DNA from: Colwellia sp. 12G3
GTDB lineage: Bacteria > Pseudomonadota > Gammaproteobacteria > Enterobacterales > Alteromonadaceae
Direction of reading: 5' to 3'
Length of the DNA: 64,000 bases
Assembly (NCBI RefSeq): GCF_002836775.1
Contig: NZ_PJAQ01000066.1
Coordinates: 248,001-312,000 of the forward strand
Part shown: positions 29,435-45,156 of the stretch, piece after piece
Numbering within the stretch: the stretch's first letter is position 1
Layout of the letters: every line of letters begins with the position of its first letter
Translations under genes and position numbers: made by a program
The notes under the pieces: model-generated
Seen by the model: only the letters and a program-made list of their open reading frames with translations
Databases searched by the model: none
What the model was told of the DNA's origin: nothing

Positions 29435-30487
29435 ATGAAAAACAGCAAATTTTTAAAACGCATGGTGACAATGAGTATTGTTGTTGTCACTGTTTGGATT
29501 TTTTGGCCATCAATACCACAGCAACACATAATGGTTAATAAACCAATAACAAAAATGCCACGCCTAGAAGTTACACATCAGCCAGTTGAAGCGGTTAAAA
29601 CTAATGCTGTACTTGCACTTACGTCAGAAAAAATAACGTCAAATGATTCAGCGACCCTAGTCGCCAAAGCGTATGCCGCAGAATTAACTTTTCCCTCATA
29701 CTCTCAACCACTAACCGATAAAGATTTTGATCGTTTGCAGCCAAATCATTTCAATCCACAATCAATTCCTGTGGACGATGAAGGGACTCAAGTCACAGCG
29801 TCATTATCAAAGTATCGTTATACCTATCCAGAGCAGGTGTTAGCGACACTTACAGGAGAAAAAATTGACAATGCTGAACTGCAACTCGTTGACCTGACTA
29901 ACGGAAAATTATTATTAACCAGCAAGTTTGAACAAGATGAAAAGGGTTGGTATGCACAATTGGACGGCAAACAAGATTTCCCAGCGCAACTGCAAGCGAC
30001 AATAAAAGCAACTGTTAATGGTAAAAATATTACCATTGCGTTATCGCTGAAATATGTTGATTCAGTCGCCACCCTAGAAGGGTTCAATTCAGCAATTAAT
30101 CAAGATGCAGATATGGTGCTGCAAGCGAACCTAACGACAAGACAGAAAGGCCTATATCGAGTACGGGCAAACTTATTTGATGCGAACAACCAACCCATTG
30201 CACACTTAGTAAGTAAAGAAAAACTCAATATAGGCAATGCTCATATAAATTTAAAAGCGCATCAATCTGTATTACAAGGGAAACAAGGACCATTTTATTT
30301 ATCGACCTTCTCAATCGAATTAATGTCGCCAGCACCAGGAAAACCAAAAAAATACGGAAATAGCGACATTAAGAAATATGTAATAAAAGATTTTGAGGTG
30401 TCTAGTTTAAGTCATACGCCCTATCAACCTTCTGAACAGGAGCAACAAAGATTGCGACTATTACAGAATATGGCTGGCGGAGGATGA
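29435..30487 (+). CDS. Membrane-anchored periplasmic protein, partner of the lipase gene
   Basis: The 350-residue protein has an N-terminal membrane anchor (about residues 9-26) and then an exported region rich in beta strands. The region includes KYRYTYPEQVLATLTG and a C-terminal Ig-like part (GPFYLSTFSIELMSPAPG). I do not recognise the family. Its anchor and its place behind a secreted lipase recall lipase-specific foldases (Lif), but the Lif signature RxxFDYxLSA is not seen, so that role is only a possibility. It could also be an adhesin-like or regulatory subunit. A perfect terminator hairpin follows. Confidence 0.65.
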   Translation: MKNSKFLKRMVTMSIVVVTVWIFWPSIPQQHIMVNKPITKMPRLEVTHQPVEAVKTNAVLALTSEKITSNDSATLVAKAYAAELTFPSYSQPLTDKDFDRLQPNHFNPQSIPVDDEGTQVTASLSKYRYTYPEQVLATLTGEKIDNAELQLVDLTNGKLLLTSKFEQDEKGWYAQLDGKQDFPAQLQATIKATVNGKNITIALSLKYVDSVATLEGFNSAINQDADMVLQANLTTRQKGLYRVRANLFDANNQPIAHLVSKEKLNIGNAHINLKAHQSVLQGKQGPFYLSTFSIELMSPAPGKPKKYGNSDIKKYVIKDFEVSSLSHTPYQPSEQEQQRLRLLQNMAGGG

Positions 30488-30505
30488 ATAACTAGAATGG
30501 CTGAT

Positions 30506-30536
30506 AGCGATAGAAAACTACCTTTTCTATCGCTTG
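30506..30536 (+). terminator. Terminator of the lipase operon
   Basis: AGCGATAGAAAA (30506-30517) is fully complementary to TTTTCTATCGCT (30523-30534), with a 5-nt loop. Confidence 0.75.
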
Positions 30537-30652
30537 GCATATATTTAGACACCTGATATATCCCAATCTTAGCCAGTTTAGTACGTCACACTTTGCGCCA
30601 AGTCTTAGATAACTTGAACTGTCACCTTAACCATTTATAGTTGAATGAATGA

Positions 30653-32992
30653 TTAGTACTGGTGTAAAGCATAACCACCTTTCAAGTGTCCTACATTTTC
30701 AAAACCTAACCGACCTAGTGCTTGAGCCGCTAATTGAGAGCGACTACCACTGCGGCAGACTAAGACTAACTCTTGTTTTTTATCCTGTTGATGCTCTTGT
30801 ACAAATTGCACTAATCGAGTCAAAGGCACATTATTTGTGAATTTTTCATCGTGTTGTAGAGCATATTCATGTGGTTCACGGATATCAATCAACTTCATTT
30901 TATTCGATTTTTTTACTGCTTCAATTAAGCTAGCACTATTATATTCGCGTACTACAACTTTCTGGCAAGCACCGCCTAAAGTACTATTGAGCGCGCCACA
31001 CATAATTTCACTGCCTGACTCATCAATAATTTTTTTATCCATTTTTACTTTTTCAATAGAGAACTCTTCAGTATTTATTTCACATTTCATTACTTGGCTG
31101 AGTAGCGAGTTACGTGCTATTTCCGTGGCAATACTGGTAGTAAATTCGTTGTGATAATCATGACTAGGACAAATAAGACTATCCTTGCCAATCAATGCAT
31201 TTACTAATTGTAAACTTGAGTACATTGCTGGTGCGCTGCTGGTTGAGAAATTTGTTCTACCAAGGCTGTCCATTAAAATTAGGTCACCACAAAAGGCATA
31301 ATGTACTTGTAATTTTTCTGTTGGATCAGTGACTGGTTCACATAATAATAAGCTAATGCTGTCATCAGTATGTCCAGGTGTTTCGACTTTAACCAACCAC
31401 TTATCACCTAGGGTGATGTATTGGTATTCTTGACCATTAATGTTTGTTTTGTTCGCATCAGCTGGCCAGCCAAGAGCGTCAGATTTTTGCTTAGCTAAAC
31501 ACTCCTTTGCAATACTTGTACGGCAAGACTCATGATCTGCATGGCCGTGGGTATCAATAACTGCGACTAAATCAAGTCCTCGACAAGTCAGTAATGTTTG
31601 CAGACGTGCAGTAACTTCAGCTAATGGGTCAATAAACAGAGCTGATTGCGTTTTTTTATCGACATATAACCAACTACAACTGCCACCCACTTTAAATTGC
31701 ACCAGACCATCTAACTCAGTTTTATCGGTGATGCTATTTGCGTCCATGGTATGCGTATCAATACTATTTGTGTCAAGAGTGAGACAGCTTTGTACCAATG
31801 CTTGGGCAGCTGAAATTATTCGGCTACAAGCTATGTCAATTTCCCCTTGGGTCATTGCGGGACCAAATGACATTCTTATAGCGGATTCACTTTGCCATGC
31901 AGGCAGCCCCATGGCATCTAAGACGAAACTACGTGTTACTTTAGAGCTACAAGCTGAGCCTGAGCTAACACGAACATTTGCCGCGTCGAATAAATCCATA
32001 ATCTCTTTAGAGCTAAAGCCAGGAATCGCAAAATTAATGGTGGTTGCTACTGAGTTTTCAAAACTATGATTAAAAACAATGTCAGGGAAAGCTTGTGTTA
32101 ATGCTGAGACTATTTGATGGCGAAATAAATGTAAGGTTTCTACTGGAGCAAAGCTAGATTCACTTTCACCTAACAACATACTAAATATTACGCTTAACGC
32201 AGCTAAACCCGGTAAGTTTTCGGTGCCAGAACGTAGACCGCTTTCTTGACCGCCACCGGCAATAATAGCGGTAAACGGTGCGTTTTCTTTAACGTACATA
32301 AAACCAATACCCTTAGGAGCATAAAGCTTATGTCCACTAAAAGGGGCATAGTCAATACTGGTTTGTGCTAAGTCTACGTTTGTTTTACCTAACGCTTGCA
32401 CGCAATCTACCATCCACGCTGTACTTGGGTTATTGGACCGTATGGTTTCGTCTAATAAACTTATGTCTTGGTAAACGCCGGTTTCATTGTTAACGGCCAT
32501 GGTACAAATCATCAAGGCATTTGGTACTTCTTTAGCGATGAAGTCCATATCAAGTTGACCCATACTATCTACGGGGATCGCTTTTACTTCGGCGTTTATC
32601 TCAAGAATTTCATTCCAGTGCTTAAGTGATTCAGGTACCGCTTTATGCTCAGTTGCACCATATAAAAGACAATAGGTTTTAGTGGCATCTAGTGTTTTTT
32701 TTGCATGCAGTAATGCCGACAAAATAGCCGTTTGAATGCCTTCAGTTGCGCCACTGGTAAATATAATTTTACCTGCTCCAGCACCGACAATTTTTTTAGC
32801 TTGTTGTCTGGTTTTATCCATTATCTGTTTGGCTTGAAGGCCGGTAATATGACTACTGCTCGGGTTACCAAAAAGTGTTTCCATGGTCGCTAAAGCTGCA
32901 GCGGCCGCTTGCGGTAAAACTTGAGTGGTGGCATTAGCATCTAGGTAAATTAAACTAAGTGGCTGTGCTGTATTTTTAGTTAATAGGGTCAT
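30653..32992 (-). CDS. Three-domain fusion: cysteine desulfurase, metallo-beta-lactamase fold, rhodanese
   Basis: The 779-residue protein joins three sulfur-related enzymes in one chain. Residues about 12-395 form a NifS/IscS-type class V aminotransferase with SSSHITGLQAK, TSGATEGIQ, the PLP lysine Lys222 in FSGHKLYAPKG and the catalytic-loop cysteine Cys348 in SSGSACSSKV. Residues about 425-640 form a metallo-beta-lactamase fold like ETHE1 persulfide dioxygenase: HGHADH (His482, His484, Asp486, His487), TPGHTDDS, FCGDLIL and CPSHDY. Residues about 680-779 form a rhodanese with MKLIDIREPHEY and the active-loop Cys746 in CRSGSRS. The likely path is Cys to persulfide, then oxidation or transfer inside one protein. 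No isc or suf genes are nearby. Every catalytic motif looks intact. Confidence 0.88.
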   Translation of the reverse strand: MTLLTKNTAQPLSLIYLDANATTQVLPQAAAAALATMETLFGNPSSSHITGLQAKQIMDKTRQQAKKIVGAGAGKIIFTSGATEGIQTAILSALLHAKKTLDATKTYCLLYGATEHKAVPESLKHWNEILEINAEVKAIPVDSMGQLDMDFIAKEVPNALMICTMAVNNETGVYQDISLLDETIRSNNPSTAWMVDCVQALGKTNVDLAQTSIDYAPFSGHKLYAPKGIGFMYVKENAPFTAIIAGGGQESGLRSGTENLPGLAALSVIFSMLLGESESSFAPVETLHLFRHQIVSALTQAFPDIVFNHSFENSVATTINFAIPGFSSKEIMDLFDAANVRVSSGSACSSKVTRSFVLDAMGLPAWQSESAIRMSFGPAMTQGEIDIACSRIISAAQALVQSCLTLDTNSIDTHTMDANSITDKTELDGLVQFKVGGSCSWLYVDKKTQSALFIDPLAEVTARLQTLLTCRGLDLVAVIDTHGHADHESCRTSIAKECLAKQKSDALGWPADANKTNINGQEYQYITLGDKWLVKVETPGHTDDSISLLLCEPVTDPTEKLQVHYAFCGDLILMDSLGRTNFSTSSAPAMYSSLQLVNALIGKDSLICPSHDYHNEFTTSIATEIARNSLLSQVMKCEINTEEFSIEKVKMDKKIIDESGSEIMCGALNSTLGGACQKVVVREYNSASLIEAVKKSNKMKLIDIREPHEYALQHDEKFTNNVPLTRLVQFVQEHQQDKKQELVLVCRSGSRSQLAAQALGRLGFENVGHLKGGYALHQY

Positions 32993-33544
32993 GAAATTCT
33001 CTCAAGTTATGTTGTTAATGCTTACTGAGAAATGCCAGTAATTAACAATGCTGTACATAAGTTAATTATTTCATGATGTTGTCGGTTTTGTTTTGCGTAT
33101 TAGCTATGTAAATCGCGGTGAGGGAGTTTTTAATTTCTAAATTACCCTTTTTTTGGAAACAATAATTCTTTAATGCTGTTTAAGCATGGTATTTAATCTA
33201 TGAAACGGTTTAATTAGAAAATAATAATTCGTCTTGATTTTGAAGGGTGACAGTCTGAATAGTACTGAAATTAACCGTTTTGATGAATGAAGATTTAATA
33301 GGTTTTCAGGTAAAGTCAAACCAGTAACCCGTGCCTCTCATATTTATTGAGTGATTATTATTCAGTTTTAATAACGAAGGTGCGAAATGGTTTGCGCTAT
33401 TAAGATAATCATATTAAGTTTATCTGTTTTTATTAATAAAGTAATTTTTGTCGATAAATATCATTATTTATAATAAAGCATAAACATAGTTAGCTGAATG
33501 GTTGTTAATTGAGTAGTCATAACATTTATAGGGCATCGTGAGTT
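32993..33544. other. Intergenic region between two divergent genes
   Basis: The AT-rich spacer of 550 bp separates the fusion gene (minus) and the M60-like gene (plus). No gene, strong hairpin or clear promoter was recognised. Confidence 0.4.
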
Positions 33545-36500
33545 TTGATCAAAATTAATAGTAGTAAATATCTAAGAGTATTGTTGTGTACAACGATATT
33601 ATTCGGTTGTGGTAGTGGAAGTGAAGAAACAGCAGTAAGTAACCCGCCAGAGGAGATAGTGCCAGATACGGATCCTGTTAGTGAAGCTATAACCGTCGAT
33701 GCGGGGACAGATATCACCCTTTATAATAATGAAGTATTAACGTTAACAGGCTCAACTAATCTAGCCGGCTTAAGCTATTTATGGAGCCAAGTAAGCGGTG
33801 ATACAGTCATAATTACTTCACATGATAGTGCTAGTGCAACGGTGGCGTTGAGTAATATCGCTCACGATAGTAAGTTAGTCTTTAAGCTAACGGTGTCTGA
33901 TTCTAAGGGAAACAGTGAAGCAGATAGCATTACCGTTATTGTGCAAGATAAAGTCAGCGCAGCTATGATCTCTGGCGATCCTTCTTTATTACCAGATACT
34001 CCTGAGTCGATTCTAAATCGCATATTGTCGGTAATTGAAGCAGAAAAAATCGAGAATGAACAAGCTTTACAAGCTATTTATGGTGATAGCAGTATCAGTT
34101 ATTTGCCTAGTCAACATTCTCAGTTTGTTAGTTTTAAACAGCGTGAAGGTGTTTACCCGCTTATTCGTGGCAACAAAGGCCTTAATTTAGCGGCGGCAGT
34201 GAATATCAATGGTCAACATAACGCAGCTTTTGGTACCAACATCATCAGAAGCTTTTATGATGGGGCGTATTTAGAATATGAACCTCACTTTGCTAATTTG
34301 TTGGCTTGGTTACTTAAACGTGACAGTGCAACGTTAGCGGATAAAACAACAGTCAAATTAGCTTTGATGGATGGCACTACGGCATGGAGAACCAGCGAAT
34401 GGTTAACAGCTAAGTATACCAATTGGACAGTTACTCACTGTACTATTGAAAGTGAGCTCAACAACTGTCTTAGTGATGCTGATTTAGTGATTACGGGTTC
34501 AAATAACGATGCTAGTAGTGAGATAGCCCTTGCTGCACTCCAAAGTGCACAAGCAAATGATGCCGCCTTATTATATGTACATTTACATAGTTGGAATTCA
34601 AACGCGTTAACGGTATCAATATTGTCGCAAATGAACCTGATTATGCAAGGCTCTGGCGGACCGGGTAACTATTTCAGCCAAGACACAGCGACGTGGGATA
34701 ACTACCAACAAATGTTAGCGGCAGGTTGGGAACTCAATGATATTTACCAGCTAGTTACTGACTTAAAAGCAAAGGTTTTTTCTTTTGATATCAGTAGCTG
34801 TGCAACAACTTGTGATGATGCTTTTAACTCTGATTTTAAAGCCATAGTACAAAGCCTTCGCATTTCAATGAATGGCTTTGACCGAGACAAGGTTGATATC
34901 TTTGCCAGTGAGTTATACCAAATTGAGAAATTATTGGTTTTACTAGCCGATTTTTATCGCCAATCTATTAGCTACCCAATGAATGTTGGCACAACACCCG
35001 CGAATGAGTTTTTACAAGCATATTTTGCTGATCATCTGGTTTACAACACGCGCGACTTTAATATGCTGCAAAAAGATTTAGGAAATTTTAGTCGCACTGA
35101 TTTTAGTCATGTCACGCCTTCAAGCAAAACGTTAAACATTACGAGTAAAGTCAGTTTTCGTTCAACGGGAGTCTATGCGTTACCAGGTCAAACAATGACG
35201 ATTAGTCGTACTGATAATAGTGAAGTAGACGTTTCTGTCTTTATTAATACTCAACGCTCAGCATCAACCCATGAGTTTGATGGCAATGGTTATAACAGAC
35301 CGAAATATTTACAGTCCGTGGCGGTTAGTATTGAATCAGGTGAAACTATCACGTTAAATTCACCTTATGGCGGACCAGTGCAACTTAAATTTAGTGTGAA
35401 TGATAAAGCGGTGGCAATTAACTTTAGTAATATCGGTCAACACCCTCATTGGGCAAGCGCTTCCGATAATGAAAGTTTTGCTGAAAAAATGACGGCTGCA
35501 GATTTTGATTGGGCAGAGATTGTTACGCCCAATTTTGAAATTCATTCTCAGTTACCAAAAATGAATGCATCACTAAGTAATGTTTATTTTCCAAGCGCCG
35601 CCGAAATTGCAGCGGGTACAGAGCAATATATTCATAACTTCGCTCATGTATTAGCGGGTTTTCAAGGTCCTGGTATTGATGTAGTGGCCGAAATTCATGA
35701 TTTTGCGAACGATAAAGGTTGGAGTATTGATAGCATAGATTATGTTAAACATATGAATGCCGACCAACCTACTTGTGGCTCAGGTTGTTCAGGAAATCCT
35801 TATGATGCCGGTTGGAATTTCAGCCCTATAGGACATGGTGATATACATGAATTTGGCCATGGTTTAGAAAAGAGCAAGTTTAGATTTTCAGGCTGGGATG
35901 GACACGCTTCAACAAATCCGTATTCGTATTACGCGAAAACACAATTTCATAAACTTACTAACACCGCTTCGTCATGCCAGAGCTTACCCTCGCAGGATAT
36001 GTTTAATACTTTAAAAGCAAGCCTTCTCGAGGCTGATGCTTTTGCTCATATGCAAGCGGCTAGTCTAACTAGTTGGAGTCAAGGCATGGCGATATATGTG
36101 CAGATGATGATGGCAGCACAAGAGCAAGGTGACTTGCTTGATGGCTGGCATTTATTAGCCCGTTTGCACATTCTATTACGTGAATTTGAACGTGCAGATA
36201 ATAACGATAATGACTGGTTAGCGAAACGTGATAGTTTAGGTTTTGGCAGTTTCACTCGTGCAGAGGCGCAAGCGCTCAACAACAATGACTGGTTAGTCAT
36301 TGCTATCTCTACAGTGACAGTACGTGATTATCGTGAGCTTTTAACCATGTGGGGCCTAAGTTTTAGCAGTGCGGCGTCATCGCAGGTCGCTAGTTTTGCC
36401 TATGCTCCTATAACACCTACTTTTTATAATACCTCAGGTAATGATTACTGTTTGGGCTTAGATAAAGCGCCAATAGCGATTAATGATCGAGATGGTGATG

Positions 36501-37006
36501 GCATTATCGACGCGGACGATATTTTCCCTGATGATCCTAATGAAAGTAATGATGCCGACGGTGATGGTATTGGCGATAACCAAGATCTGAGTTATGACCT
36601 AGATCCAACTAAACTTACCTATCAAAACATTGAACTTCAGTCAAAGAGTAACACTGAATGTTTAAGTATTGATGCTGGCGCTAGCTTAGCAGGGCAAAAA
36701 ATTGTCAGTGCGGTATGTAGCAATGATAACAACACGCTGTGGAACTGGGGAGATGATGGTCAATTACACACGGCGGCAGATGCTTCAATGTGTATTGCTG
36801 TTGATAGCCTTGGTAATGGCGCACAATTGATATTAGCGAGCTGTGCTGACATTAATAATCAAGCTTGGGCTTATAACAATGACAGTAAGGCTGTTACGAG
36901 CGTTAATTTTACTGGTTTAGCATTCGACTTGTATGGCAATAAAGAAGTTCATTTGTACAATACCCATGGCGGCAGTAATCAGCAGTGGCTGATTACTGTC
37001 CACTAA
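33545..37006 (+). CDS. Large surface lipoprotein with an M60/ImpA-like metallopeptidase domain
   Basis: The 1153-residue protein starts with a lipoprotein signal (lipobox ending in FGC, Cys about 23) and an N-terminal PKD/Ig-like domain (residues about 50-135). A long ImpA-like region follows, with the zinc motif GDIHEFGHGLE (His768, Glu769, His772). DGHASTNPYSYY follows, a position where M60 enhancins usually carry EVxNNI. Near residue 985 are thrombospondin-3-type calcium loops (DRDGDGIIDADD, DADGDGIGDNQD). The C-terminus is a ricin-B-like lectin fold with QAW and QQW repeats. Such proteins cleave mucin-like glycoproteins (IMPa, SslE/AcfD group). The start is TTG at 33545. It is divergent from the fusion gene. 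Confidence 0.85.
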   Translation: MIKINSSKYLRVLLCTTILFGCGSGSEETAVSNPPEEIVPDTDPVSEAITVDAGTDITLYNNEVLTLTGSTNLAGLSYLWSQVSGDTVIITSHDSASATVALSNIAHDSKLVFKLTVSDSKGNSEADSITVIVQDKVSAAMISGDPSLLPDTPESILNRILSVIEAEKIENEQALQAIYGDSSISYLPSQHSQFVSFKQREGVYPLIRGNKGLNLAAAVNINGQHNAAFGTNIIRSFYDGAYLEYEPHFANLLAWLLKRDSATLADKTTVKLALMDGTTAWRTSEWLTAKYTNWTVTHCTIESELNNCLSDADLVITGSNNDASSEIALAALQSAQANDAALLYVHLHSWNSNALTVSILSQMNLIMQGSGGPGNYFSQDTATWDNYQQMLAAGWELNDIYQLVTDLKAKVFSFDISSCATTCDDAFNSDFKAIVQSLRISMNGFDRDKVDIFASELYQIEKLLVLLADFYRQSISYPMNVGTTPANEFLQAYFADHLVYNTRDFNMLQKDLGNFSRTDFSHVTPSSKTLNITSKVSFRSTGVYALPGQTMTISRTDNSEVDVSVFINTQRSASTHEFDGNGYNRPKYLQSVAVSIESGETITLNSPYGGPVQLKFSVNDKAVAINFSNIGQHPHWASASDNESFAEKMTAADFDWAEIVTPNFEIHSQLPKMNASLSNVYFPSAAEIAAGTEQYIHNFAHVLAGFQGPGIDVVAEIHDFANDKGWSIDSIDYVKHMNADQPTCGSGCSGNPYDAGWNFSPIGHGDIHEFGHGLEKSKFRFSGWDGHASTNPYSYYAKTQFHKLTNTASSCQSLPSQDMFNTLKASLLEADAFAHMQAASLTSWSQGMAIYVQMMMAAQEQGDLLDGWHLLARLHILLREFERADNNDNDWLAKRDSLGFGSFTRAEAQALNNNDWLVIAISTVTVRDYRELLTMWGLSFSSAASSQVASFAYAPITPTFYNTSGNDYCLGLDKAPIAINDRDGDGIIDADDIFPDDPNESNDADGDGIGDNQDLSYDLDPTKLTYQNIELQSKSNTECLSIDAGASLAGQKIVSAVCSNDNNTLWNWGDDGQLHTAADASMCIAVDSLGNGAQLILASCADINNQAWAYNNDSKAVTSVNFTGLAFDLYGNKEVHLYNTHGGSNQQWLITVH

Positions 37007-40453: not shown

Positions 40454-41635
40454 CTATAAATCCGCATGAGGACCGAACACTTCATAGTGAATATTCTCCA
40501 TAACTACGCCTAAATTTAGTAACTGTTGCTTGGCAAACTGCATGAACGGAATAGGTCCACAAAGATAGAAGTTTCCGTGTTCAATTGGCAATTCTACCTT
40601 AGTTAAATCCATCATACCGTGATGAATATGCGATTGCTCATTCACTTCGTCTCGATACCAAATAGCTTGCTGCCAATTATTCTCTTCAATAAGGCCAGCT
40701 GTTTTTGATGAAAATGAATGTTGTTCACTGTTTTCACAGGCATGTAAATAATGCACTGCATGGTTATAATCTTGTTGAGCTAATGTCTCTAGTATTGCTT
40801 GCATAGGGGTTATGCCAACACCGGCAGAAAGCAATACCACAGGTGCTTGTCGGTCAGTAAAGAAAAAGTCACCTGCGGGCGCGTATAAGTCTACTTTATC
40901 AGCTATATGTAGTTCATCATGCAAATAGTTTGAAACAATACCTGGTACTTCGTTTGCTTCACGTTTTACTGAAATTCGATAGGTTTCATTATTGGCTTTA
41001 TCAGATAAAGAATATTGACGTATTTCTTTAAACTCTCGGTTTGGATCACAGACTTCAATACCCAGATACTGGCCAGGCTTAAAGCCTATTACTGGTTTGT
41101 CATCAACAGGTGCAAAAATAAAGCTCGTTACTAACTTCGATTCAACTATTTTATTTACCACAGTAAATGCTCTGGCGTCGCGCCAGCCACCTAATGTCTC
41201 AGCACGTTCTTGGTATAGTTCGGTTTCTCTGTTAATAAATATTTGTGATAAAAATTGATAAGCTGCTGTCCATGCTTCTTCAACATCGGCAGTGAAAGCG
41301 TCGCTCGCTAATTCTCGCAATGTCTCGATAAGGTGATGCCCGACAACCGCGTAATGCGGTGCTTTAATATTGAAACTAGTATGTTTTTGCGCAATACGTT
41401 CTACTGCTGTGGTTAATACCGCTAAGTTTTCAATATTTTTAGCATAGGCTGCTATAGCTTCAAACAGTGCAACTTGTTGTCTACCCGAGTGTTGATTAGC
41501 CATATTGAAGATATCTTGCAACTCAGGATTATGGGTGAATAATCGTTGATAAAAATGACCCGTTAACGCGGGACCTGCATTTTCTAAAAGGGGAATAGTA
41601 CTTTTTATTATGTCTATGTGCTTGTCAGTTAACAT
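40454..41635 (-). CDS. hmp: Nitric oxide dioxygenase (flavohaemoglobin)
   Basis: The 393-residue protein starts at the ATG at 41635 with AGGAGC six bases upstream, which gives the usual MLTDKHIDIIKS N-terminus. Residues 1-140 form the globin domain with the haem-region IKAPHYAVVGHHLIETL. Residues 150-260 form the FAD-binding domain (GFKPGQYLGIEV, RQYSLSD) and the rest binds NAD(P)H (LLSAGVGITPMQAIL, FYLCGPIPFM). Hmp oxidises NO to nitrate with O2 and NADPH. It is the last gene of the operon led by the 90-residue protein and nnrS, under the sigma-54/NorR control region at 43373-43477. Confidence 0.95.
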   Translation of the reverse strand: MLTDKHIDIIKSTIPLLENAGPALTGHFYQRLFTHNPELQDIFNMANQHSGRQQVALFEAIAAYAKNIENLAVLTTAVERIAQKHTSFNIKAPHYAVVGHHLIETLRELASDAFTADVEEAWTAAYQFLSQIFINRETELYQERAETLGGWRDARAFTVVNKIVESKLVTSFIFAPVDDKPVIGFKPGQYLGIEVCDPNREFKEIRQYSLSDKANNETYRISVKREANEVPGIVSNYLHDELHIADKVDLYAPAGDFFFTDRQAPVVLLSAGVGITPMQAILETLAQQDYNHAVHYLHACENSEQHSFSSKTAGLIEENNWQQAIWYRDEVNEQSHIHHGMMDLTKVELPIEHGNFYLCGPIPFMQFAKQQLLNLGVVMENIHYEVFGPHADL

Positions 41636-41748
41636 GATTGCTCCTAAGGAAAACTGAAATGAAAAATGAGCTCTAGGTAAATTACCTAGCGTGGTACTCA
41701 TGGATTTTGTATTTTTGAAATAATTGGTATTGCTGTGTATTTATTCTT

Positions 41749-43020
41749 TTAACGACTAAAGGACTTCTCAATTCTTTTAGCGGTCAAAATCGGGTAGTAA
41801 ATTTTTAAGAACAAAGCACCGGCGATTAGCCAGGCGAAGGCGCTAATATTCCAACTCAACAGCGGCTGAAAAATTAATGTCGGCATAAAGGCTCGTGTCA
41901 GTGCTGACAGAATAATCAGAATAAATACCCATGAAACCAGTTTACTCGGTGTTAATGCTCTGCCTGTATGGCCAAGCGATACTCGGCTCATCATGGCAAA
42001 AATCATCAAGCCCATTGCGGCTATGGTAATTAAATGCAGTGCATCACCAAAGGAAATGCCTAACTGAATAAAGCCAATGCCATGCAAGGGCTGGTAGCTC
42101 ATACCGAGTAATATTAATCCCAAACCTAGTGAAAAATACGATAAGTGCAAGGACCATAATAAAGCGATGTTTCTAGTAGCAAAGCTACGCCAGTAACTTT
42201 GTCTAACGAGGTGAAGTAGTCCTGCTGTTATCATTAATCCAGCAGGGCTAAAGGGTAAATCAATGAAAGCCGAACTAAAAAACACCAGTACACCTGAAAC
42301 TGAAGTAATGGTGAGTAATGGTGTTAGCCAACTAGGGCTAGTTATTGGTGAAAGTTTAGCACCGGATATGGTGAAAAAAGGGATCACTCGACCACCTAAA
42401 ATACCCATTAGTAAACAAAACATCAGCACACAGGTTCTAGCAATATGACGGGTCAATTCATAATGACCGTTGAAGTCGAGCAGTAATAAGGCAATATTAA
42501 GCAGCATTAACACCGATAATAATGGAATAAATAGGTAGTTTCGGCGGTTGTTACTTTTAAGCACTAACCGCGTGAAAACAGCAATGGCACCAAGCCACCA
42601 AAAGCTTTGTAAGATGATGGCTATGACAATAGTGCTAGGTAAGTTAATGAATAAGGCGACTCTAACCATTAGCCAAAGTGCTATAAAAGCTAATACCGGT
42701 AAGCCCTTAATGCTTGGTTGTCCTGTCCATGTTTGTGCAGCGGTAAGAACAAAACCAACAGCAACGGTGGCAGCAAAACCAAAGATCATTTCATGAATAT
42801 GCCAAGCTAGCGGGCTAATGCCATTGTCGCTAAAAGTGAAATAACCATTAAAATAGGCTGCCCATATTCCTAACGAGAACATAGAGCAAGTCACGGCAAG
42901 TAAAAAGTAACTTCTAAAAGGTAAGTCAAGCGCGGGGTGCTTTGCTATAAAGCTGACTGAACTTGTATCTTGCTGGTCATAAGTTAGTTGAGCAGTCTCT
43001 GAATCTTGAATTTGTAACAT
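41749..43020 (-). CDS. nnrS: NnrS-family haem-copper membrane protein
   Basis: The 423-residue product starts at the ATG at 43020 with AAGGAAC upstream, one base after the stop of the preceding gene, so the two are translationally linked. It has about twelve hydrophobic helices and the NnrS features LAWHIHEMIFGFAATVAVGF, TAAQTWTGQ and HLITIAAMGLMIFAMMSRVSLGHTGR, with several conserved histidines. NnrS is a membrane haem protein that relieves nitrosative stress. Its place between the small membrane protein and hmp, under NorR-type control, agrees with that. Confidence 0.9.
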   Translation of the reverse strand: MLQIQDSETAQLTYDQQDTSSVSFIAKHPALDLPFRSYFLLAVTCSMFSLGIWAAYFNGYFTFSDNGISPLAWHIHEMIFGFAATVAVGFVLTAAQTWTGQPSIKGLPVLAFIALWLMVRVALFINLPSTIVIAIILQSFWWLGAIAVFTRLVLKSNNRRNYLFIPLLSVLMLLNIALLLLDFNGHYELTRHIARTCVLMFCLLMGILGGRVIPFFTISGAKLSPITSPSWLTPLLTITSVSGVLVFFSSAFIDLPFSPAGLMITAGLLHLVRQSYWRSFATRNIALLWSLHLSYFSLGLGLILLGMSYQPLHGIGFIQLGISFGDALHLITIAAMGLMIFAMMSRVSLGHTGRALTPSKLVSWVFILIILSALTRAFMPTLIFQPLLSWNISAFAWLIAGALFLKIYYPILTAKRIEKSFSR

Positions 43021-43021
43021 A

Positions 43022-43294
43022 TTAAAAGTTCCTTTTACCAAAGCCATGTAAAGCAACGCAGCGCAAGACATAGCCAATTTTGAGTAAACCAGCAAAAACG
43101 ATAGTGGCAATATGCGCAGATACTTGCGCTGAAATGGTGAAGTGTTCGTCATAACCAAAAGTAATAAATATAGAAGTACTCACAATCACTAAAGATAACA
43201 ACATGAGGTAGTTACCTATGACTAAGCATTTTTGAAAACCTAATGCGTTATCTATAGTGGGTAGTTGGCGAGCGATAGAAAATTGTGAATACAT
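43022..43294 (-). CDS. Small conserved membrane protein of the nitric-oxide operon
   Basis: The 90-residue protein has two hydrophobic helices, about residues 28-46 (GNYLMLLSLVIVSTSIFITF) and 56-74 (VSAHIATIVFAGLLKIGYVL), and a basic C-terminus. It is the first gene after the sigma-54 promoter and overlaps the nnrS start closely. Similar proteins accompany nnrS and hmp in other marine gammaproteobacteria in my recollection, but no function is known. A role in NO sensing, haem delivery or NnrS assembly is possible; none is shown. Confidence 0.75.
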   Translation of the reverse strand: MYSQFSIARQLPTIDNALGFQKCLVIGNYLMLLSLVIVSTSIFITFGYDEHFTISAQVSAHIATIVFAGLLKIGYVLRCVALHGFGKRNF

Positions 43295-43372
43295 GGCGGC
43301 CTCTTGTTGATTATTATTTATGGATTATTATTTATGGATTATTAATTACTGCACTTATTTATCACTGATATA

Positions 43373-43387
43373 GCAAAGTAAGTGCCA
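43373..43387 (-). promoter_or_regulatory. Sigma-54 promoter of the nitric-oxide operon
   Basis: On the minus strand TGGCAC (43387-43382), a 5-bp spacer and TTGC (43376-43373) form a perfect -24/-12 element about 80 bp upstream of the first operon gene. The divergent norR gene supplies the required activator. Confidence 0.9.
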
Positions 43388-43441
43388 GGTTTATTTTTAC
43401 TTTATATTCAATTGTTTATATTTTTATACTTACTTCTTGTA

Positions 43442-43477
43442 GTCATATAGACTCACTTGTTGTGTGGTCATAAAGAC
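43442..43477. promoter_or_regulatory. Two NorR-type enhancer sites
   Basis: GTCATATAGAC (43442-43452) and GTCATAAAGAC (43467-43477) both fit the GT-N7-AC NorR consensus, are imperfect palindromes, and lie 25 bp apart. They are 55-95 bp upstream of the sigma-54 element on the minus strand, a normal enhancer distance. E. coli norVW has three such sites; only two are clear here. Confidence 0.8.
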
Positions 43478-43572
43478 TCGGTTGTGTTATTTTGTCTCAC
43501 TAGAAGTTACTGTTATCCTAACTTTTCCGCTAACTATAATGTTCGGAACTGAACCTCTCATCAGGACAAACT

Positions 43573-45156
43573 ATGAAACAAATATCTTCAACGGCAGTTA
43601 TTGAGTTAGCACTCGATCTTGCAACGAGCTTAAATAGCAAAGATAGATTTGATCGGTTATTAGATACCGTCAGAAAAACCATTACCTGTGACGCGGTAGC
43701 ATTACTGTCTTTTCATGGGGATGTGCTAAAACCCATTGCCCTGCAAGGATTAAGTAGAGATACCTTAGGACGTCGTTTTTATGTTGAAGAGCACCCACGA
43801 TTTCTAGCACTTTGCCAATCAAAGTCACCGATTCGTTTTGCTGCCGACTCACCATTACCTGATCCCTACGATGGATTATTAATAGATCGTGCTGGCGATT
43901 TACCTGTGCATTCATGCATGGGTTTACCATTGTATTATGATGATAAATTGTTAGGTTTATTAACAATTGATAGCCTAACGCCCCATGACTTTGAAGATAT
44001 TGAGGTACGGACGTTAGAGGTTATTTCAGCCATTGCGGCAGCAACACTCAATACGGCTTTTCTACTGGATCAACTTGAAAGTAGGGCTGATCATTCACAG
44101 CGTGTGGTGGCAGAATTAACAGAAGAGGCGTGGAAGCGTGATGGTGGCGAACTTATTGGTGAAAGCCCTATTATGTCGCAACTGAAACAAGAATTAGACA
44201 TAGTTGCTTCCTCCGATTTTAATATCTTAATCTATGGTGAAACTGGCGTAGGTAAAGAACTTGTTGCCCGAACCTTACATCAAAAGTCAATGCGACATCA
44301 TGGTCCTATGGTTTATGTCAATTGTGCCGCTTTGCCGGAGAATTTGATTGAAAGTGAGCTTTTTGGTCATGTAAAAGGGGCGTTTACGGGTGCTGAAAGA
44401 AATCGTGCTGGTAAGTTTGCATTAGCCGATGGTGGTACCTTATTTCTAGATGAAATAGGCGAGTTACCGCTGGCTGCACAAAGTAAGATTTTAAGAGCGA
44501 TACAGAGTAATGAGATCCAACCGGTTGGCCAAGACAATGTTGAGGAAGTCGACGTTCGTATTGTCGCAGCGACCAATAGAGACTTGAAAGAAGAAGTCGG
44601 TGAAGGGCGTTTTCGTGCTGATTTGTACCACAGATTAAGCGTATACCCTATCCGGGTGCCAAGGTTGTACGAGAGAGTTGGCGATGTGCAGTTGCTCGCG
44701 GGTTATTTTGTTGAACAAACTCGACGTAAGCTCGGCATAACTCAGTTAAAAATTACCGAGCAAGCAGTTGCTCATTTAACGCAATACAACTGGCCAGGTA
44801 ATGTCCGTGAATTAGAACATGTTGTTAGCCGAGCAACTTTAAAAGCACGAGCCCGTCAACGTGGTAAAGCGATAATCTCTATCGATAAAGTTGATTGTGG
44901 TTCACTTAACGCGATTGGCGTCGAACTACCGATAGAGCTCATAGCCGTAAACGGCTTATTATCAACACCTGAACAGCATACTAACTTTCATTTAAAAGAA
45001 GAAACCGAGAACTTTCAAAAACAATTAATTAGCCGAATACTTAAAGAAGAAGAAGGTAACTGGGCGGCAGCGGCACGACGACTATCGACCGATAGAGCTA
45101 ATTTAAATCGTATTGCTAAACGCTTGAATATTAAAGTAGTTAAGTCAGTTATTTAA
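43573..45156 (+). CDS. norR: NorR, nitric-oxide-sensing sigma-54 activator
   Basis: The 527-residue protein has an N-terminal GAF domain (residues about 1-170), where NO binds a non-haem iron in E. coli NorR. An AAA+ domain follows, with Walker A GETGVGKE, the sigma-54 contact loop GAFTGAE and Walker B GGTLFLDEIGEL. At the C-terminus is a Fis-type helix-turn-helix (GNWAAAARRLSTDRANLNRI). It is divergent from the operon that ends in hmp, with the NorR sites and a sigma-54 promoter in the 278-bp gap. It should switch that operon on in response to NO. Confidence 0.95.
   Translation: MKQISSTAVIELALDLATSLNSKDRFDRLLDTVRKTITCDAVALLSFHGDVLKPIALQGLSRDTLGRRFYVEEHPRFLALCQSKSPIRFAADSPLPDPYDGLLIDRAGDLPVHSCMGLPLYYDDKLLGLLTIDSLTPHDFEDIEVRTLEVISAIAAATLNTAFLLDQLESRADHSQRVVAELTEEAWKRDGGELIGESPIMSQLKQELDIVASSDFNILIYGETGVGKELVARTLHQKSMRHHGPMVYVNCAALPENLIESELFGHVKGAFTGAERNRAGKFALADGGTLFLDEIGELPLAAQSKILRAIQSNEIQPVGQDNVEEVDVRIVAATNRDLKEEVGEGRFRADLYHRLSVYPIRVPRLYERVGDVQLLAGYFVEQTRRKLGITQLKITEQAVAHLTQYNWPGNVRELEHVVSRATLKARARQRGKAIISIDKVDCGSLNAIGVELPIELIAVNGLLSTPEQHTNFHLKEETENFQKQLISRILKEEEGNWAAAARRLSTDRANLNRIAKRLNIKVVKSVI

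Follow-up and report, generated by a model that had tools for sequence, protein, structure and literature searches.

A three-domain protein in Colwellia sp. 12G3

The stretch of DNA analysed here (64,000 nucleotides, hereafter the window; Colwellia sp. 12G3, NCBI RefSeq assembly GCF_002836775.1, contig NZ_PJAQ01000066.1, positions 248,001 to 312,000) carries, on the minus strand at 30653-32992, one unbroken open reading frame (ORF) encoding 779 residues from its ATG without an internal stop. Three domains follow one another along this chain, all on the minus strand: a class I cysteine desulfurase (residues about 15-404; 31781..32950), an ETHE1-like, that is persulfide-dioxygenase-like, metallo-beta-lactamase domain (about 429-640; 31073..31708) and a single-domain rhodanese (about 681-779; 30656..30952). 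Pfam places Aminotran_5 at residues 15-386 (8e-54) and Rhodanese at 694-774 (3e-11, 44 bits for a cut-off of 22.2), and a phmmer search against solved structures matched residues 15-392 to NifS and IscS and residues 438-774 to BpPRF, a persulfide dioxygenase-rhodanese fusion from Burkholderia phytofirmans. The preliminary description of this gene had read it as a desulfurase, a persulfide-dioxygenase-like domain and a rhodanese in one 779-residue protein, and the ORF, Pfam and phmmer agree with it. The residues that it named are also where it had placed them: K222, C348, the H482/H484/D486/H487 motif, the later His and Asp residues (H541, D570, H611 and D612) and C746. A frameshift or an assembly join between the domains was looked for and not found, and 71 of 75 related loci are full length in a single ORF, aligning from residue 16 or earlier to residue 773 or later. 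In the structure search with the whole predicted model, the best 50 matches listed were desulfurase-type chains only; the C-terminal half was modelled separately for the fold comparison of the dioxygenase-like and rhodanese domains.

The desulfurase domain has the residues of its class: the pyridoxal phosphate (PLP) lysine K222, the base H116, the PLP contacts D196 and Q199 and the catalytic C348. These residues, together with S219, H221 and R373, are identical in 86 of 86 sequences (92 were collected, identical ones dropped; all residue counts below refer to these 86), and the catalytic-cysteine loop 348-351 has a low predicted local distance difference test score in the model. The domain is related to NifS and IscS without being an equivalog of either, scoring 258.9 against a cut-off of 530.75 for NifS and 202.1 against 643.2 for IscS, and in a tree of desulfurase domains the fusion clade stands on a long branch away from three outgroup desulfurases. 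Matches of the defence-system search PADLOC to SspA and DndA cover the desulfurase domain only and were set aside, no search for partner genes having been made. At the other end of the chain, the rhodanese passes the Pfam cut-off, carries D703 and R705, and has its cysteine in a CRxGxR loop (C746 RSGSR, in full CRSGSRS); C746 is kept in 85 of the 86 sequences, the single miss being L017, which is truncated.

In the middle domain, H482, H541 and D570 form the 2-His-1-carboxylate iron triad when aligned to BpPRF and to the persulfide dioxygenase MxPDO. H482 and H541 are each conserved in 82 of 86 sequences and D570 in 83, and D486, H487, R579, H611 and Y613 are predicted second-shell residues. 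The persulfide-dioxygenase-like label holds over glyoxalase II, since both sequence (phmmer and alignment) and predicted fold lie nearer to persulfide dioxygenases. As in BpPRF, the dioxygenase-like domain is directly followed by one rhodanese with its cysteine; BpPRF is the top match by sequence and by fold. A linker cysteine between them, C665 in 'MCGA' (30998..31000, minus strand), is invariant in a 40-row alignment and lies opposite the 'CG' of BpPRF. Sequence identity averages 0.73 in the desulfurase, 0.59 in the rhodanese and 0.55 in the middle domain over 600 sampled pairs, from which the five eroded or cut rows were omitted.

The 75 distinct related loci come from Colwellia, Paraglaciecola, Pseudoalteromonas, Shewanella, Parashewanella, Arsukibacterium, unclassified gammaproteobacterial metagenome-assembled genomes (MAGs) and one Pirellulaceae MAG; the closest relative found is another Colwellia (L049, 93% identity). 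Four of them are not full length: the contig of L017 ends within the gene, and L073-L075 have an eroded middle domain, their BLAST alignment spanning the first 479-494 residues only, with a Pfam rhodanese present in both that were tested (L073 and L075). The fusion occurs in 32 of 295 genomes sampled from the order (E 1e-100), in one of 369 drawn from the class, namely the window's own, and in five of 299 drawn from the phylum, which include the own genome and G910, with an eroded middle domain. The fusion of the Pirellulaceae MAG (L065) is 44-46% identical and may reflect transfer between phyla or a foreign contig in the MAG.

When the C-terminal dioxygenase-rhodanese half served as query, 27 of 197 genomes gave matches, and all 25 matches covering at least 350 residues at 34% identity or more lay inside ORFs of 747-801 residues. 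The six remaining matches, each in a different genome, are separate proteins of 240-368 residues with 26-34% identity; the fusion is present as well in four of these genomes. This half is thus matched at full strength only inside fusions, as a distinct subfamily not found unfused in the 197 genomes, and since fusion and separate dioxygenase occur in the same genomes, the fusion is no simple replacement for the latter. The own genome likewise encodes a separate dioxygenase-rhodanese protein (L079, G000:C3:47616-48566) with the canonical Asp (GRSDF) and the rhodanese loop CHSGRRS. Cysteine dioxygenase was matched in only four of the 295 genomes of the order, three of them over the cut-off, and one of the four (G233) also has the fusion.

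Upstream sequences and the CysB-type box

Upstream of the fusion in Shewanella and Pseudoalteromonas lies a 17-bp dyad with the consensus TATAAC-N5-GTTATA. In a pattern search of the Shewanella-like genome G105, an exact site precedes the fusion and, among four sites with two mismatches, one lies 57 bp ahead of the conserved cysB start; the other three precede no gene recognised as a sulfur gene. The whole-genome count of the pattern in G105 is below that of the reversed-pattern control (54 vs 90), for which reason the evidence drawn from it is confined to which sites were hit. We then scored promoters with a symmetric matrix derived from 23 site cores, 316 promoters from the same loci serving as controls (99th percentile 11.0, maximum 16.1). 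Scores above 11.0 were obtained upstream of cysB in 6 of 10 cases (Mann-Whitney p 1e-6) and upstream of cysK in 6 of the 7 with a start found (p 7e-6), these p values being optimistic as the sequences are related; two of the three missing cysK starts, located later, score 12.3 and 6.1. The six cysB positives and the first six cysK positives fall in one set of six genomes: G016 and five members of genus g19, which is Shewanella-like by its gene content. The remaining four genomes, including the window's own, score poorly. Upstream of cysD, 7 of 12 score at least 14, which is supporting only, as up to 1400 bp were searched with no matched control. For the fusion, cysB, cysK and cysD, the scores are 19.4, 18.7, 13.8 and 20.0 in G105, and 19.4, 18.8, 13.8 and 15.7 in G213. 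In Shewanella-like relatives, the fusion therefore shares its box with cysB and cysK of the same genome, from which we infer control by CysB, as the protein that would bind the box, in these genomes.

A box scoring at least 11 is present in 54 of 81 loci, one genome being counted twice (L019 and L112). Of the loci scored, 44 supplied the motif and 48 were kept out of it; 17 of these 48 score at least 11 (including L066, L075, L069, L109, L110, L106, L114 and L115), some of them sharing a genus with training loci. An extended -10 element (TGnTAnnnT) is present in 41 of the 54 boxed loci, and in 39 of the 41 the box begins 17 bp after it. This arrangement suggests an operator just downstream of the transcription start, a position that would mean repression; by eye, the cysB box of L180 also appears to lie downstream of its -10, in this one case. 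In Pseudoalteromonas, it is the box before the fusion itself that would speak for control by CysB, and nothing besides. A literature search found no CysB consensus for these bacteria for comparison. Inspection by eye of Shewanella loci such as L029 and L041 shows a CRP-like palindrome, TGTGATCTTGATCA, that overlaps what is probably the -35 element of the fusion promoter.

Upstream of the Colwellia gene there are elements other than the CysB-type box that Shewanella and Pseudoalteromonas have. A conserved block, 'GCAAAACAAAACC ... CATGAAATAATT' (33064..33101, minus strand), is found in Colwellia and partly in Paraglaciecola and may be the promoter or an operator for the gene in the window, and a 5' leader inverted repeat, TTGTTAAT...ATTAACAA (33012..33048, minus strand; fold z -2.4), is kept in several Colwellia relatives in the alignment. 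In Rfam, the 5' region matched no credible family, and a promoter and terminator scan of 30480-33560 gave results no better than shuffles.

Neighbouring genes

The preliminary description had noted that no isc, suf or sulfide-oxidation genes are adjacent, and a Pfam scan bears this out: the 15 other ORFs of at least 150 residues between 18.6 and 45.2 kb of the window include none of these, nor a scaffold, carrier or other sulfur gene. Across loci, no sulfur gene holds a fixed position beside the fusion. The same is not true of its proposal that the gene may be a self-contained module, which fits the absence of an adjacent sulfur gene here and is weakened by the box shared with cysB and cysK in Shewanella-like genomes and by TauE/SafE-family neighbours in ten relatives. 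Nine of these come from a set of 76 loci (the own one included; 69 of the 76 have at least 1300 bases on each side). In four of them (L008, L012, L013 and L060), the TauE/SafE-family gene follows the fusion at 90-97 bp on the same strand, and in five Pseudoalteromonas loci it is divergent and lies 229-258 bp upstream; the tenth (L113), upstream and divergent, is the one case among 18 further regions. Pfam confirmed TauE in all six of the ten that were scanned.

Other neighbours seem to reflect common gene order and not a shared function, namely a pseudouridine synthase, YhcH/DUF386, a DSP-phosphatase-like protein and an M74 endopeptidase in Shewanella, and two conserved genes with no Pfam match in Colwellia. 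The DSP-phosphatase-like gene looks secreted and often precedes the fusion on the same strand (L041:7073-7630 and other Shewanella loci). L114 and L115 (G133 and G089) have a cysK-like gene some 1 kb upstream of the fusion. Divergent from the fusion, at 33545-37006 of the window, a large secreted-looking protein has IMPa-type metalloprotease, M60-like N-terminal, PKD and ricin-B-type lectin domains by Pfam. Farther away, at 40454-45156, Pfam finds a flavohaemoprotein-like protein (globin, FAD and NAD domains), NnrS and a GAF/sigma-54 activator, which we take to be NorR-like; this is probably a nitric-oxide response cluster.

A possible exit for cysteine sulfur

We propose that the protein is a cytosolic enzyme of cysteine-sulfur homeostasis that works by an intramolecular persulfide relay, from which sulfur leaves as sulfite or thiosulfate, and that it is tied to CysB in Shewanella-like relatives; we see an even chance that this reading is right. 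The desulfurase domain would move the sulfur of L-cysteine onto Cys348, and the sulfane sulfur would then pass to the rhodanese Cys746, either directly or via a small thiol. From Cys746 it would go to low-molecular thiols or to sulfite, and the ETHE1-like domain would oxidise part of the low-molecular persulfide to sulfite. Cysteine sulfur would in this way exit as sulfite or thiosulfate rather than accumulate as persulfide or sulfide. In the Shewanella-like relatives, and perhaps more widely, the operator downstream of the promoter would tie transcription to the cysteine regulon. A more specific version, in which the desulfurase feeds its own dioxygenase via its own rhodanese as a single-chain route from cysteine to sulfite, within the cysteine regulon in some relatives and bypassing cysteine dioxygenase, is possible but doubtful.

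The first leg of this relay has a direct precedent in CD-Rhd of Pseudorhodoferax sp. Leaf274, a desulfurase-rhodanese fusion reported to work by this kind of relay (PMC12319549), and BpPRF provides one for the second leg. Like CD-Rhd, the protein has an N-terminal desulfurase and a C-terminal rhodanese in one chain, with a catalytic cysteine in each, and in CD-Rhd cysteine sulfur is reported to pass both. In contrast to CD-Rhd, which is described without mention of a dioxygenase domain, it contains a middle domain of about 210 residues, and its catalytic cysteines are 398 residues apart (C348 and C746) instead of 132 (C334 and C466). With BpPRF (PDB 5ve3-5ve5) it shares the C-terminal domain order, the iron triad, the rhodanese cysteine and the linker 'CG'; BpPRF lacks the desulfurase domain at 15-404, has Asp where the fusion has N581, and is only about 24-29% identical. 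When both domains of BpPRF are superposed together, the root-mean-square deviation (rmsd) is 15 Å, so that the predicted domain arrangement differs or is unsure. For the dioxygenase domain alone, the predicted fold lies at an rmsd of 2.8-3.0 Å over 204-208 residues from MxPDO and ETHE1, and the HxHxDH, PGHT, GD, GRT and HDY motifs are those of ETHE1, MxPDO and AcPDO. The latter are stand-alone proteins, as are IscS and NifS, and ETHE1 has D165 (numbering via PMC6060420). CstB of Staphylococcus aureus also combines dioxygenase and rhodanese domains, without a desulfurase. PDB 3r2u, which we take to be CstB or a relative, appears as a sequence and fold match only.

Several observations weigh against this proposal. 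The Lactamase_B score of the middle domain is under the Pfam cut-off (20.1 vs 22.7 bits). The preliminary description had held that all three active sites look complete; every residue that it named is present, but it overlooked the position of ETHE1 Asp165, where the fusion has Asn581, so that R579 is there without the Asp of the Arg163-Asp165 pair. Position 581 is N in 77 of 86 sequences, D in four (L097, L065, L098 and L069) and another residue or a gap in five. Since all six separate dioxygenases (L079 and L143-L147) carry Asp at the equivalent position, Asn is probably the derived state. In AcPDO, the Ala mutant of the Asp165 equivalent is reported to have kept 1.5% of its activity (PMC6060420), and by analogy the dioxygenase activity of the fusion may be weak or altered owing to N581. 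D486 and/or H487 are changed, with the iron triad unchanged, in L066, L069 and L100-L102; AcPDO mutants at the equivalent residues had, as reported, undetectable activity (PMC6060420), and these five may be impaired as dioxygenases too, although the pattern itself is the one expected of a single-iron site and so favours the proposal. The metal site itself is gone in L073-L075 and in L099 (no H482 or H541), with the sites of the outer domains intact. In the desulfurase-domain tree (48 rows), L073-L075 group with L066, and L099, a long branch whose exact placement is unsure, groups with L108, both branches being starred. As L108 retains the iron-site residues and L099 does not, the metal site was probably lost at least twice. 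The L073-L075 proteins, of the Pseudoalteromonas luteoviolacea group, and L099 are natural and probably dioxygenase-dead versions. The idea of three working steps in one chain thus has the domains and the conserved catalytic residues for it, and a middle domain dispensable in two lineages and the change of Asp165 to Asn against it. Because the outer sites are invariant and the middle site is not, desulfurase and rhodanese look like the core, with the dioxygenase-like domain as a common but dispensable outlet.

The regulatory side of the proposal meets difficulties too. The best box score in the 250 bp upstream of the window's own gene is 2.1, and no Colwellia locus reaches 11 (best 10.2), the own genome scoring 10.8 for cysB, 5.1 for cysK and 18.8 for cysD. 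In the Pseudoalteromonas-like G244, the fusion (L112) scores 17.1, cysB -0.5 and cysD -1.6, the cysK start not being located. If CysB acts here as it does at its own gene in E. coli, expression of the fusion might rise under cysteine limitation, which is unsuited to an overflow valve. The TauE pairing, of a sulfite exporter-like family, is suggestive, no more, and concerns a minority of loci.

The protein might instead serve sulfur salvage: induced with the CysB regulon when sulfur is limiting, it would supply assimilatory sulfite reductase and CysK with sulfite made from organic persulfides, from thiosulfate or from some unusual sulfur amino acid, and the real substrate of the desulfurase need not be cysteine. 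The box common to the fusion, cysB, cysK and probably cysD in Shewanella-like genomes speaks for this, and so does the argument that making sulfite from cysteine under cysteine limitation would be futile, so that a CysB-induced enzyme should use another sulfur source. The paper on BpPRF reportedly says in its title that the fusion 'functions in sulfur assimilation', which also counts for salvage. However, the desulfurase domain retains all checked residues of a normal cysteine desulfurase, the position of the box downstream of the -10 suggests repression, and the TauE-family neighbours suggest export in some species; we regard salvage as unlikely on balance. The choice between disposal of excess cysteine sulfur and salvage under limitation hinges on the sign of regulation, which lies beyond the reach of sequence. 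The protein could also be a transpersulfidase, its desulfurase and rhodanese supplying a protein partner or a small thiol while the middle domain, as a persulfide- or glutathione-binding spacer, has little or no dioxygenase activity. The invariant outer sites beside a metal site lost in two lineages, N581, the lowest mean identity of the three domains and the existence of a two-domain desulfurase-rhodanese fusion would all fit, but the iron triad and the pocket Arg, His and Tyr persist in 81-83 of the 86 sequences, which is hard to explain without catalysis, and we consider this function rather unlikely.

An ordinary house-keeping role of the desulfurase, for Fe-S clusters or for the thiolation of tRNA, to which the fused domains would be mere decoration, would agree with the IscS/NifS class of the first domain. 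It is very improbable given that two more full-length desulfurase-like genes exist in the own genome, besides a 590-residue ORF that matches in part, and given the lack of a scaffold or carrier gene among the 15 ORFs scanned, the patchy presence in the order and the scores far under the equivalog cut-offs. Least credible of all is a middle domain acting as a glyoxalase II-like thioester hydrolase and not as a dioxygenase. NCBIfam GSH_gloB does match residues 441-618 (1.9e-13), yet with 50.4 bits for a cut-off of 200.8, and since the second-metal residues vary while the triad stays, a two-metal hydrolase is unlikely and one iron is as expected.

Natural desulfurase-rhodanese and desulfurase-TusA fusions (PMC11763069) and dioxygenase-rhodanese fusions (PMC6060420; PMC9774590) have been published. 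The order desulfurase-dioxygenase-rhodanese was not recognised in the open-licence PubMed Central (PMC) literature searched, an absence that is weak evidence. The protein is thus a new combination of known parts with partial precedents.

To conclude, the three-part protein is probably a built-in way of handling cysteine sulfur that has been kept in related bacteria. If our proposal is true, a single protein would generate persulfide, hand it on and oxidise it to sulfite, and reactive sulfur species would need no release. Bacteria of which most have no cysteine dioxygenase would then possess an oxidative exit for their cysteine sulfur, and in some of these persulfide oxidation would be linked to the cysteine regulon and not to external sulfide. 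A natural test of what the middle domain contributes is offered by the lineages in which it is eroded, and under the single-chain route its repeated erosion would be a reversion to a plain desulfurase-rhodanese relay. The proposal would, in addition, assign a testable function to a protein whose annotation, in the one annotated full-length plasmid match (H3), reads only 'aminotransferase class V-fold PLP-dependent enzyme'.

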